Shown: piece after piece, positions 36,145 through 60,828 of the stretch
Position numbering within the stretch: the stretch's first letter is position 1
Layout: each line of letters starts with the position of its first letter
Origin: Streptomyces venezuelae
GTDB taxonomy: Bacteria > Actinomycetota > Actinomycetes > Streptomycetales > Streptomycetaceae
Assembly (NCBI RefSeq): GCF_008642295.1
Contig: NZ_CP029190.1
Span: forward strand, 3,215,001 to 3,279,000
DNA length: 64,000 nt
Direction: 5' to 3'
The notes under the pieces: model-generated
What the model saw: the letters and a program-made list of their open reading frames with translations, nothing else
What the model was told of the DNA's origin: nothing
Database searches by the model: none
Position numbers and translations under genes: made by a program

Positions 36145-37479
36145 CTAGAGGACCCGGACCTCCGGGGTGTAGAGGATCCACCGGCCGCCGGCCGCGCGGA
36201 ACTCCTGCTCCTTCGCCGTGATCTCCTCCGCGTGGTTCCACGCGAACAGCAGCGCATAGTCCGGGTAGGGGGCGGCGAAGGCCTCCGCCGGGCGGACCGG
36301 GATGTGGGAGCCCGGGGTGAGCCGGCCCTGCTTGGCCGGGGTGGTGTCGCAGACGAACTCGATCAGCTCCGGGCCGATGCCGCAGTAGTTGGCGACCGTC
36401 GCGCTCTTCGCCGTCGCCCCGTACGCCACCACCCGGCGGCCCTCCGCCCGCAGCCGCCCCAGCAGCTCCGTCAGCTCCTCGCGGGTCCGCCGCACCCCGG
36501 CCGCGAACCGCTCCAGGGTGGCCGGCTCGGCCAGCGCCGCCGCCTCCTCCTCCGCCAGCAGCGCGGCCACCGCCGCCGAGGGGGCCTGGGCGCCCTGCCG
36601 GGCCAGGGTGTAGCGGACCTCGCCGCCGTGCACCGGCAGCCGGACCACGTCCACCAGCTCGAAGCCGTACCGGCGGGCCAGATTGCGTACCGAGCGGGCC
36701 GTGAAGAACCAGTAGTGCTCGTCGTAGATCTGGTCGAAGGAGGTGCGCTCCACGATCTCGCCCAGGTACGGGTCCTCGAAGACGAACACCCCCGTCGGCT
36801 TCAGCAGCGCGTCCAGCCCGCGGAAGACCGACTCCAGGTACGGGATGTGGCACAGCGTGTTGGCCGCGTACACCACGTCCGCCCGGCCCTCCGCGGCGGC
36901 GATCTCGCGGGCCGTGGACTCCTCGAAGAAGGCCGTCCGGACCCGGACGCCCTTCTCCCGGGCCCGGTCGGCCACCCCCGCCGACGGGTCGACACCCAGG
37001 TGCCGTACCCCGGCCGCGGCCACGGTCGCCAGCATCACCCCGTCGTTGCAGCCGAGTTCCACCACGAAGGCGTCCGGGCCGGCCGCCGGGCCGGCCAGCA
37101 GCTGCCGGGCGGTGTCCTCGAAGTGCCCGCGCATCACCGTCGATCCGGAGGAGTGGTACGGGTAGTCCTCGTGGAACATCCGCTCCCGCGGGACCTCCTC
37201 CATCAGCTGCACCATCGTGCACTCCCCGCACAGGCCCACCGCCAGCCGGAAGAAGAACTCCCCCTCCGTCTCCCCGGGGCGCGGGAAGGCATCGGAATTG
37301 GGCTGGGCCCCCAGATCGAGGAACTCGGTCAGCGGTCCGGCACAGGCACGGCATCGAGCGGTGCCGGTCGTGGCCGTCGTGCCAGTCGTGGCCGTCGTGC
37401 CAGTCGTGGCCGTCGTGCCAGTCGTGGCGGTCGTGGCGGTCGTGGCGGTCGTGGCGGTCGTGGCGGTCGTGGTGGTCAT
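36145..37479 (-). CDS. NDP-hexose 3-C-methyltransferase (EvaC/TylC3-like)
   Basis: The 444-residue protein has an N-terminal zinc site (CRACAGPL and CGECTMVQL, about 43-90), the SAM motif VELGCNDGVML (about 143-153), the catalytic Tyr/His in IYDEHYWFF and a C-terminal NAD-like fold (VVAYGATAKSATVANYCG). This is the three-domain architecture of enzymes that methylate C-3 of dTDP-3-amino-4-keto sugars. It is the last gene of a six-gene minus-strand operon and overlaps the epimerase (ATGA). Residues 2-40 are an unusual Thr/Ala/Gly repeat encoded by tandem 18-bp and 9-bp units; this lies outside the enzyme fold. Confidence 0.92.
   Translation of the reverse strand: MTTTTATTATTATTATTATTGTTATTGTTATTGTTATTGTARCRACAGPLTEFLDLGAQPNSDAFPRPGETEGEFFFRLAVGLCGECTMVQLMEEVPRERMFHEDYPYHSSGSTVMRGHFEDTARQLLAGPAAGPDAFVVELGCNDGVMLATVAAAGVRHLGVDPSAGVADRAREKGVRVRTAFFEESTAREIAAAEGRADVVYAANTLCHIPYLESVFRGLDALLKPTGVFVFEDPYLGEIVERTSFDQIYDEHYWFFTARSVRNLARRYGFELVDVVRLPVHGGEVRYTLARQGAQAPSAAVAALLAEEEAAALAEPATLERFAAGVRRTREELTELLGRLRAEGRRVVAYGATAKSATVANYCGIGPELIEFVCDTTPAKQGRLTPGSHIPVRPAEAFAAPYPDYALLFAWNHAEEITAKEQEFRAAGGRWILYTPEVRVL
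37361..37477. repeat. In-frame tandem repeats in C-methyltransferase gene
   Basis: Four 18-bp units (GTGCCAGTCGTGGCCGTC type) are followed by five 9-bp units (GTGGCGGTC type), read on the plus strand. They lie inside the first 40 codons of the C-methyltransferase and encode Thr-Thr-Ala/Gly triplets. Unit lengths are multiples of three, so slippage would change length without breaking the frame. Confidence 0.92.
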
Positions 37480-38054
37480 CGGTTCTCCTGAAGGGTCGCA
37501 GGGGTGAAGGTGGGGAGCAGGCCGCGGTCGGCCGCTTCGGCGAGGGTGGGCGCCCGCCGGTCCCGGTCCGAGAGGACCGGGGTGAGGTCCGCGGGAAGCG
37601 GCAGCCCGAGCGCCGGGTCCAGCACGGACACGGCGAGCTCGTGCTCGGCGACGTAACCCGTGGACAGCAGGTAGGACATGACGGTGTGGTCCTCCAGGGC
37701 CACGAAGGCGTGCCCGACCCCGGGCGGGAGGTACACCGAGCGGAAGCCCTCCCCGTCCAGCAGCACCGAGTCCCAGGTGCCGAACGCCGGGGAGCCCACC
37801 CGCAGGTCCACCACGAAGTCCAGGGCTGCGCCGCGCGGACAGTGGACGTACTTCTCGGTGCCCGGGGACACCGCGGTGTAGTGCACGCCCCGGACCACCC
37901 CGCGCCGCGAGACGCTCTGGCTGGCCTGCCGGACCGGGAAGAGCGGGCGGAACTCCCGCTCCTCGTAGGTGGAGACGAACAGCCCCCGGTCGTCGCGGTG
38001 CAGCTCCGGGGTGAATGCGATCGCCCCGGGCACCGCCAGCTCGCGCGCCTTCAC
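37476..38054 (-). CDS. dTDP-4-keto-6-deoxyhexose 5-epimerase (EvaD/RmlC-like)
   Basis: The 192-residue cupin of the RmlC family has FVSTYEEREFRPLFP, the catalytic-His segment SRRGVVRGVHYTAVSPGTEK (about 49-68) and YLPPGVGHAFVALEDHTVMSY (about 112-132). GVHYT in place of the GLHFQ of 3,5-epimerases and the small size fit 5-epimerases acting on 3-amino or 3-C-methyl sugars, which turn D- into L-sugars. The GTG start overlaps the stop of the aminotransferase gene and its own stop overlaps the C-methyltransferase start, so translation is coupled. Confidence 0.92.
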   Translation of the reverse strand: MKARELAVPGAIAFTPELHRDDRGLFVSTYEEREFRPLFPVRQASQSVSRRGVVRGVHYTAVSPGTEKYVHCPRGAALDFVVDLRVGSPAFGTWDSVLLDGEGFRSVYLPPGVGHAFVALEDHTVMSYLLSTGYVAEHELAVSVLDPALGLPLPADLTPVLSDRDRRAPTLAEAADRGLLPTFTPATLQENR

Positions 38055-59806: not shown

Positions 59807-59844
59807 ACATCCCACCCCCGACTCGAAGGACCGCGAGAAGCACC

Positions 59845-60828
59845 ATGAGAATCCTCGTCACCGGAGGGGCCGGCTTCATCGGCTCCCACTTCGTCCGCCA
59901 GCTGCTGTCCGACGACGGACCGGAGGCGGCGGGGCTCACCACGCCCACCGCCGTGACCGTCCTGGACGTGCTCACCTACGCCGGCAACCCCGCCAACCTG
60001 GCCTCCGTACAGGACGACCCGCGGCTGACCTTCATCCGCGGGGACATCCTCGACACCGACAGGGTCACCGCTCTGATGGCCGAGCACGACGCGGTGGTCC
60101 ACCTGGCGGCCGAGTCCCATGTGGACCGGTCCATCGCCGCCGGCGGCGGCTTCGCCTCCACCAACGTCCTGGGCACCCAGAACCTCCTCGAGGCCGCCGT
60201 ACACGCCGGGCTCGGCACCTTCGTCCACGTCTCCACGGACGAGGTGTACGGCTCGATCCCGGTCGGCTCGTGGACCGAGGAGCAGCCGCTGTCCCCCAAC
60301 TCCCCCTACTCGGCGGCCAAGGCGGGCTCGGACCTGCTGGCCCTGGCGTACCACCGGACGCACGGCCTGGACGTGCGGATCACCCGGTGCTCCAACAACT
60401 ACGGCCCCCACCAGTACCCCGAGAAGATCATCCCGCTCTTCATCACCCGGCTGCTCGACGGCGGGTCCGTCCCGCTCTACGGGGACGGCGAGCAGATCCG
60501 GGACTGGCTGCACGTGGAGGACCACTGCCGGGCCATCCGGCTGGTGCTGGAGGGCGGCCGGCCCGGCGAGGTCTACAACGTGGGCGGCGGCACCGAGCTC
60601 ACCAACAAGCAGCTGACCGCCCTGCTGCTGGAGGCCTGTGGCCGGGACTGGGAGAGCGTGGAGCACGTGGCGGACCGCAAGGCCCACGACGCCCGCTACT
60701 CGGTGGACTGGTCCAAGATCCGCGACGAGCTGGGCTACCGCCCGCTGCGCTCCTTCGACGAGGGCCTGGCCGCCACCGTGGACTGGTACCGGCAGAACCG
60801 CGCCTGGTGGGAGCCGCTGGACCGCTGA
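59845..60828 (+). CDS. rmlB: dTDP-glucose 4,6-dehydratase
   Basis: The 327-residue extended SDR has the NAD site VTGGAGFIGSHF (about 5-16), HLAAESHVDRS (about 83-93), the catalytic Thr-Asp-Glu in STDEVYGS, the Tyr-Lys pair in YSAAKAGSD (about 155-163) and RCSNNYGPHQYPEKIIP. It makes dTDP-4-keto-6-deoxyglucose, the branch compound used by the sugar operon at 36145-41402. It follows rmlA by 38 bases. Confidence 0.95.
   Translation: MRILVTGGAGFIGSHFVRQLLSDDGPEAAGLTTPTAVTVLDVLTYAGNPANLASVQDDPRLTFIRGDILDTDRVTALMAEHDAVVHLAAESHVDRSIAAGGGFASTNVLGTQNLLEAAVHAGLGTFVHVSTDEVYGSIPVGSWTEEQPLSPNSPYSAAKAGSDLLALAYHRTHGLDVRITRCSNNYGPHQYPEKIIPLFITRLLDGGSVPLYGDGEQIRDWLHVEDHCRAIRLVLEGGRPGEVYNVGGGTELTNKQLTALLLEACGRDWESVEHVADRKAHDARYSVDWSKIRDELGYRPLRSFDEGLAATVDWYRQNRAWWEPLDR

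Follow-up and report, generated by a model that had tools for sequence, protein, structure and literature searches.

Daptide clusters that also encode lanthipeptide-type enzymes have been described before: in the tfDap cluster of Thermobifida fusca, LanKC, an LLM-class reductase, and a YcaO protein lie beside the daptide core (PMC12338566; journal version PMC12670281), and the passages of the former covered here describe conversion of the daptide C-terminal amine to a dimethylimidazoline by the YcaO protein DapY. Glycosyltransferases in daptide clusters have likewise been mentioned in print. Elsewhere among ribosomal peptides, the core of cacaoidin (SSAPCTIYASVSASISATASWGC) carries a disaccharide on tyrosine, and its cluster holds two family 2 glycosyltransferases (GT2), a GT4, and rml genes, with glycosyltransferase roles that are only proposed in the sections covered (PMC8068269). 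For glycopeptide antibiotics, EvaA to EvaE are described in the covered part of PMC8987122 as converting dTDP-4-oxo-6-deoxyglucose to L-epivancosamine. Here, we describe a gene cluster at positions 36145 to 60828 of a 64,000-nucleotide stretch of Streptomyces venezuelae (contig NZ_CP029190.1, positions 3,215,001 to 3,279,000; the window), in which a full daptide pathway stands together with LanKC, an F420-type reductase, YcaO, two GT2 enzymes, rmlA and rmlB, and a vancosamine-type sugar operon.

The gene set, its conserved order, and an association between GT2 genes and tyrosine in the precursor cores are observed directly. Judged from sequence, this is probably a single daptide cluster with a vancosamine-type operon, whose two glycosyltransferases, GT2a (57651 to 58742) and GT2b (41399 to 42448, within a divergent operon), are predicted to attach the sugar to a mid-core tyrosine. 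More broadly, we lean slightly toward a daptide family that combines a tyrosine-O-linked vancosamine-type aminosugar placed by GT2s, D-amino acids, and a C-terminal imidazoline, and in which a GT2 gene together with a tyrosine 9 to 14 residues from the C terminus would be a readable code for glycosylated daptides. The initial annotation had proposed a single product that combines the daptide, LanKC, YcaO, and sugar modifications, and it knew of no described compound with that set. Because daptide enzymes, LanKC/LanJ, and YcaO have been published together as tfDap, that hybrid belongs to a known sort of cluster, and we rejected it as the main novelty. The new part would instead be a daptide with a predicted tyrosine-linked aminosugar, encoded by a real, conserved cluster. 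Every gene that the annotation had named was present where it was placed, and hidden Markov model assignment confirmed the enzyme families.

Glycosyltransferases and tyrosine in the precursor cores

Clusters for comparison came from DapC or DapD searches over 392 genomes drawn at genus, 396 at phylum, 394 at family, and 391 at order level (overlapping draws) and from one scan of named genomes, which contributed its best 79 loci with 10-kb flanks. Loci without DapB near DapC were left out. From 120 clusters, 4 without a found precursor, 14 duplicates (DapC identity of at least 98%), and 10 whose flanks were too short for scoring GT2 were dropped, leaving 92, of which 53 had a LanKC match and 33 a YcaO match; KC, J, and YcaO matches co-occurred in 19 of 102 de-duplicated clusters. 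One cluster (L185), whose GT2a runs off the end of the locus, was scored as GT2 positive by hand, and another (L206) was scored as lacking LanKC by the coverage threshold though LanKC is present.

Among the 53 de-duplicated clusters with LanKC, at least one core contained tyrosine in all 25 with a GT2 gene versus 2 of the 28 without one (Fisher P of 4e-13, uncorrected for relatedness). The first set had given 13/13 versus 0/11, and LanKC clusters outside that set gave 12/12 versus 2/18; moving L206 to its proper class makes the counts for GT2-positive clusters 26/26 with LanKC and 5/5 without it. The two exceptions, with tyrosine and no GT2, were G970 and G847, and in G847 the tyrosine immediately follows the leader. 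Seven later loci stand outside the 92: two were duplicates, and the other five, scored separately, had tyrosine in 2/2 clusters with GT2 and 1/3 without, the exception (G1163) being nearest to G970 (87% in DapC). Serine, threonine, and tryptophan were present in every LanKC cluster. On a midpoint-rooted FastTree phylogeny of DapC, GT2 changed nine times, with an average of six branches showing a same-direction change in tyrosine (seven for the motif of a small residue, Tyr, and G/S/T/V) and none an opposite one, while other varying residues had at most one change coincident with GT2. For G866 and G1071, one core each had been missed by the profile and was added by hand for the tree analysis only, bringing the motif count from 30/31 to 31/31. 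Within the GT2-positive cores, 45 of 53 tyrosines lay 9 to 14 residues from the C terminus, mostly flanked by small residues. The counts and the DapC tree therefore lead us to predict O-glycosylation of tyrosine, as in cacaoidin. We did not find this GT2-tyrosine rule in the literature searched, and it points to a likely glycosylation site in 30 further de-duplicated daptide clusters.

An alternative hypothesis is that the daptide is glycosylated on a serine or threonine adjoining the tyrosine, with tyrosine merely forming part of the recognition site. Serine or threonine directly follows 20 of the 53 tyrosines in GT2-positive cores, and glycocins carry their sugars on Cys, Ser, or Thr (PMC8068269, in the part covered). 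However, the residue after the other 33 is Gly, Val, Ile, or Ala (IYGG, for example), both Ser and Thr also occur in every LanKC cluster that lacks GT2, and tyrosine alone tracks GT2 on the tree. We consider sugar attachment at these neighboring residues improbable.

Several observations weigh against tyrosine glycosylation by the two GT2s or narrow the test behind it. G970 and G1163 (L152/L153 and L281/L282) have LanKC, lack GT2, and keep tyrosine at the same place (AGYGSY and AAYGSY), and no close GT2a relative was found elsewhere in the G970 genome (best E value of 1.5e-14). The departure of this lineage from the rule is one-sided, tyrosine being present without GT2; here either the enzyme was lost or the tyrosine is used otherwise. 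The motif also occurs without GT2 in cluster G1045a, where the stretch read contains no LanKC. Scoring any tyrosine is weaker across all 92 clusters (31/31 with GT2 versus 29/61 without) and does not discriminate among those scored as lacking LanKC (6/6 versus 27/33), because Microbacterium- and Arthrobacter-type daptides have tyrosine in other contexts without GT2. In these same clusters, the motif was found in 6/6 with GT2 (one of which, L206, does have LanKC) versus 5/33 without; it was defined only after the first set was known. GT2 was scored only with the two GT2s of the window as queries and within 14 kb of DapC. In four clusters (G1071, G1073, G866, and G1120), the stretch read shows GT2b with the aminosugar operon but no GT2a. 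The putative EvaE enzyme of the sugar operon was assigned by elimination and operon place, and LanKC and YcaO may act on a single precursor.

The four clusters without GT2a also bear on a second arrangement, in which GT2a puts a rhamnose-type deoxysugar on tyrosine before GT2b extends it with the vancosamine-type sugar into a disaccharide, as on the tyrosine of cacaoidin in the sections of its report covered. GT2a falls in the clade of the single GT2 found after LanKC elsewhere; many of the clusters concerned also carry rml genes. Both the window and G152 have GT2a as well as GT2b. In those four clusters, however, GT2b would need to glycosylate the peptide itself first, as no GT2a is present in the stretch read, and we judge a disaccharide of this kind somewhat unlikely. 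For transfer of the aminosugar, GT2b is the better candidate, because its nearest group is the GT2s of the other clusters with the operon, whereas GT2a clusters with the single GT2 placed after LanKC. A second sugar may come from GT2a, or this enzyme may act on the second tyrosine of precursor A1. The two enzymes are 43% identical.

The aminosugar operon and its conservation

Seven clusters carry the aminosugar operon in one conserved order: the window, G152, G1071 (Streptomyces sp. TSRI0107, the same as L190), G1073, G866, G1120, and L248 (Streptomyces sp. A108). In all seven it is divergent from DapJ and accompanies the same daptide core with LanKC, YcaO, and DapJ; six continue with rmlA and rmlB, and coverage of L248 stops at the GPP34 gene. 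Enzymes of these clusters are 50 to 86% identical to those of the window. The recurrence of gene order shows that the arrangement is not due to chance. The proposal of the initial annotation that one product combines all of these modifications held insofar as the blocks travel together in all seven clusters, with the daptide block never apart from the LanKC, YcaO, and sugar block (L248, again, only as far as GPP34); the LanKC, YcaO, and daptide part of the combination had already been described.

Under another reading, the cluster would make more than one product, with the sugar operon serving a different metabolite and merely adjoining the daptide genes. Its divergent orientation would fit such a division, as would flanks that seem to mark a site of cluster exchange. 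Against this, the order is kept in seven clusters at the identities given above, and no other scaffold-making gene was recognized in the insert, making separate products very improbable.

The insert was bounded by comparison with G970, a genome of the same genus. The window, which sits in a 7.5-Mb single-contig Streptomyces genome, aligns with G970 at 31093 to 34297 and 61288 to 64000 with 80 to 87% nucleotide identity, placing the insert at approximately 34298 to 61287, a length of about 27 kb. Between the shared flanks, G970 has a daptide cluster in reverse orientation whose aligned core is 69 to 73% identical to that of the window; no GT2, YcaO, or aminosugar genes were found in the G970 cluster at this site. 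As the two genomes share flanks around different, oppositely oriented daptide clusters, this chromosomal site seems to exchange daptide clusters.

All genes of the sugar operon lie on the minus strand, and outward from GT2b they follow the order A, E, B, D, C. The putative EvaA-like NDP-hexose 2,3-dehydratase (40080 to 41402; PF03559) has EvaA as its sole PDB match (4j7g; E value of 1.4e-108). In the place of evaE is an SDR-type ketoreductase, a candidate EvaE-like C4-ketoreductase (39151 to 40086; PF01370, 134.7 bits) with weak PDB matches (best, 52.6 bits). The evaB place holds a DegT-family sugar aminotransferase (38051 to 39154; PF01041), assigned as EvaB-like by family and position, with PDB matches to 7b0d (labeled scyllo-inositol transaminase), 2oga, and QdtB (3frk), the last two of which we take to be C3-acting aminotransferases. 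The EvaD-like sugar epimerase of the RmlC fold (37476 to 38054) best matches PCZA361.16 (1ofn; E value of 3.9e-71), which we take to be EvaD itself. The EvaC-like sugar 3-C-methyltransferase (36145 to 37479) has its best PDB matches in the sugar 3-C-methyltransferase 5t64 (646 bits) and TcaB9 (629 bits), far ahead of the mycarose 3-C-methyltransferase (273 bits). Counterparts of EvaA, EvaC, and EvaD are thus present by their best PDB sequence matches. In glycopeptide clusters, the evaA-E-B-D orthologues most likely form one operon with evaC as a separate unit, and small differences in EvaE set whether epivancosamine or vancosamine is made (PMC8987122, in the part covered). The operon of the window encodes an apparently complete vancosamine-type aminosugar set in which vancosamine and epivancosamine are not distinguished by sequence.

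GT2b itself (minus strand; PF00535) contains an LDHDD motif and is predicted with high confidence to be a GT-A enzyme (predicted local distance difference test score of 95.3; its PDB matches include GT-A folds). Close relatives of GT2b extend beyond the seven clusters, for example, at 92% identity in Streptomyces sp. NPDC051211, which also has a GT2a relative on an equally long contig, both among the matches listed. On the plus strand, GT2a (PF00535), placed by the daptide-GT2 tree in the clade described above, is followed by rmlA, encoding glucose-1-phosphate thymidylyltransferase (58739 to 59806; TIGR01208, 437.8 bits; cutoff, 320), and rmlB, encoding dTDP-glucose 4,6-dehydratase (59845 to 60828; TIGR01181, 426 bits; cutoff, 365).

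A larger group of daptide clusters has a single GT2 directly after LanKC with rml-type genes nearby (G365, G295, G185, G083a, G125, G018, G048, G377b, L180, and others); possibly their products are further glycosylated daptides bearing another deoxysugar. In distant daptide clusters for which no LanKC match was found, a GT2 likewise accompanies a YGG motif in the core (L228, L249, L250, L254, and G788, which is L243), and this set spans Frankia, Cellulomonas, an Arthrobacter metagenome-assembled genome, Microbacterium mangrovi, and Streptomyces sp. RPT161. Some genomes have two daptide-type loci (G083, G377, and G1045): in G083, one locus has a GT2 and the other does not, and the second locus of G377 has no GT2 in the stretch available.

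Daptide core, precursors, LanKC, and YcaO

The plus strand carries, in order, DapJ, DapD, DapM, DapC, DapB, two precursors, DapT1, DapT2, DapP, LanKC, YcaO, GPP34, LuxR, GT2a, rmlA, and rmlB. The minus strand, diverging from DapJ, carries GT2b, the 2,3-dehydratase, the ketoreductase, the DegT aminotransferase, the RmlC-type epimerase, and the C-methyltransferase. The daptide genes are co-directional and overlapping or narrowly spaced, with 4-base overlaps at DapM/DapC and DapC/DapB. All five NCBIfam daptide protein models (NF041820 to NF041824) and the precursor model NF041808 scored above their curated cutoffs: the recognition protein DapD, with its recognition element for ribosomally synthesized and posttranslationally modified peptides (RiPPs), at 43640 to 44716 (NF041823, 410.6 bits; cutoff, 150); the N-methyltransferase DapM at 44727 to 45554 (NF041820, 329.9 bits; cutoff, 175); the class III aminotransferase DapC at 45551 to 46819 (NF041821, 642.8 bits; cutoff, 450); the Fe-ADH-type oxidative decarboxylase DapB at 46816 to 48021 (NF041822, 469.2 bits; cutoff, 300); and the intramembrane metalloprotease DapP at 50067 to 51731 (NF041824, 519.6 bits; cutoff, 300), for which the Pfam M50 score of 25.3 is slightly under the cutoff of 27.2. 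The exporter comprises an ABC transporter ATP-binding subunit, DapT1 (48558 to 49331; PF00005), and an ABC-2 type permease, DapT2 (49324 to 50070; PF12730).

The precursors DapA1 (48062 to 48232; NF041808, 33.7 bits; cutoff, 25) and DapA2 (48282 to 48452; 38.1 bits) both show an ELExMEAP-type leader and a C-terminal threonine. The core of A1, GWWSVGAYISGAGVSGAVTYSIVATAIATT, has two tyrosines and ends in TT, while that of A2, GMWSNFQAGVTVSVAASAIYGGVASAVAVT, has one and ends in VT. No third precursor was found in the cluster by the precursor profile, and its open reading frame list holds no additional frame with its own place between genes; in line with the expectation of the initial annotation, we thus found no separate LanKC/YcaO precursor with a leader of its own.

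LanKC, a Ser/Thr dehydratase (51781 to 54402; NF038151, 882.6 bits; cutoff, 575), is a hallmark of class III lanthipeptides, but the core cysteines needed for thioether rings are absent. Lanthionine rings were rejected because neither A1 nor A2 has Cys in its core, and none of the 53 daptide clusters with LanKC does either. The LanC domain of the enzyme is weak (PF05147, 30.5 bits), and no CHG string was found in it. DapJ (42644 to 43606), a LanJC-like F420-type reductase of the LLM class (PF00296, 95.2 bits; cutoff, 27.9; TIGR03564, 121 bits, under the cutoff of 234), opens the plus-strand series, and by analogy its pairing with LanKC is more likely to give D-Ala from Ser than persistent dehydro-residues. 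Elsewhere in the source genome, LanC-like matches lie at C1:552019-552720 and C1:1621287-1622288, where further lanthipeptide-type loci are possible.

The YcaO protein DapY (54518 to 55828; PF02624) ends in PHPLP, a PxPxP terminus shared by 22 of 43 YcaO proteins from daptide clusters (duplicates included). It is 47% identical to the YcaO of Nocardiopsis metallicus (L193), a species presumably of the same family as the tfDap host. Azolines, thioamides, and amidines, the YcaO products that the initial annotation had listed, are disfavored here (the last as a core amidine) because characterized PxPxP daptide YcaO enzymes form a C-terminal imidazoline, the dimethylimidazoline made by DapY in the passages covered (PMC12338566). 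SaDapY acted on three of four precursors of one cluster in the same partial source, raising a branched output in which A1 and A2 receive different ends, imidazoline and dimethylamine, with one or both glycosylated. The unlike termini and tyrosine counts of the two cores would suit such branching, which is compatible with tyrosine glycosylation and which we hold tentatively as a possibility short of even chances.

Between DapY and GT2a are a GPP34 (GOLPH3-like) protein (55862 to 56542; PF05719, 162.3 bits) and a LuxR-type regulator (56743 to 57366; PF00196, 61.8 bits). GPP34 was found only in daptide clusters with GT2 (the window, G152, L248, G365, G295, G183, and G1137), several of which are closely related and differ in flank length. 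Eukaryotic GOLPH3 binds glycosyltransferases, and by that analogy a link between GPP34 and the glycosyltransferases is possible.

Proposed pathway

We propose that DapD would recruit both precursors through the LELGMQELEAMEAP leader, after which LanKC would dehydrate serine (and perhaps threonine) and DapJ would reduce the dehydrated residues to D-Ala (or D-aminobutyrate). DapB, DapC, and DapM would convert the C-terminal threonine to an amine, from which DapY would form an imidazoline in at least one of the two peptides. The sugar donor dTDP-(epi)vancosamine would come from RmlA, RmlB, and the EvaA-E-like enzymes, and GT2b, perhaps with GT2a, would transfer (epi)vancosamine to the tyrosine hydroxyl. 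Cleavage after Pro by DapP would precede export through DapT1T2. Calculated neutral masses are 2898.53 with dimethylamine and 2866.50 with imidazoline for the A1 core and 2853.49 and 2821.46, respectively, for the A2 core; each Ser converted to Ala would lower these by 15.995, and each vancosamine-type sugar would raise them by 143.095. If this scheme is true, it would add a type of glycosylated RiPP for which the searchable literature gave us no description. A GT2 able to attach a vancosamine-type sugar to a ribosomal scaffold would have practical value as a tool, because glycopeptide antibiotics receive these sugars through GT1 enzymes on non-ribosomal scaffolds.

Comparison with known systems

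No characterized daptide with a sugar appeared in the literature passages covered. An aminosugar daptide was not found among the matches listed from the open-access literature (most subscription journals lie outside the search), where the one match listed for the words "daptide" and "glycosylated" together was a review on host defense peptides for skin. Like tfDap and saDap (Streptomyces azureus), the cluster of the window has DapABCDM, DapP, DapT1T2, and a PxPxP YcaO, and it shares LanKC and the LLM reductase with tfDap; unlike the window, neither is mentioned with sugar genes or glycosyltransferases in the portions covered, and the main text has no occurrence of the stem "glycos". The sca cluster of Streptomyces capuensis (PMC10036551) likewise joins a daptide core with LanKC/LanJC and a predicted D-Ala from Ser, whereas the part of that report covered mentions no YcaO, glycosyltransferase, or sugar operon.

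Parallels for the sugar come from outside the daptides. The EvaA-E enzymes of chloroeremomycin and their vancomycin counterpart correspond to those of the window in the order evaA-E-B-D, with the EvaB and EvaE counterparts of the window putative, and in the 3-C-methyltransferase, but there GT1 enzymes act on a non-ribosomal peptide and evaC lies apart, whereas the window has GT2 candidates, a ribosomal scaffold, and the C-methyltransferase in the same run (PMC8987122, in the part covered). Glycocins and NAI-112 are glycosylated RiPPs too, but the former carry sugar on Cys, Ser, or Thr and the latter a deoxyhexose on Trp (PMC8068269, in the sections covered). With regard to homology with the cacaoidin GT2s Cao8 and Cao16, no label of S. 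cacaoi was found among the 113 GT2b matches listed or the best 120 of 157 GT2a matches, many of which have no species label. As described in the sections of its report covered, the class V lanthipeptide cacaoidin differs in its lanthionine and aminovinyl-methylcysteine (AviMeCys) rings, in having no daptide enzymes reported, in its third glycosyltransferase (GT4), and in carrying rhamnose and 6-deoxygulose rather than an aminosugar. It is like the cluster of the window in its D-amino acids, ascribed to an F420-type reductase, its two GT2s and rml genes, and its O-glycosylated core tyrosine (TIYAS), and the pairing of GT2 with a core tyrosine that marks cacaoidin-like chemistry is true of the cluster in the window.

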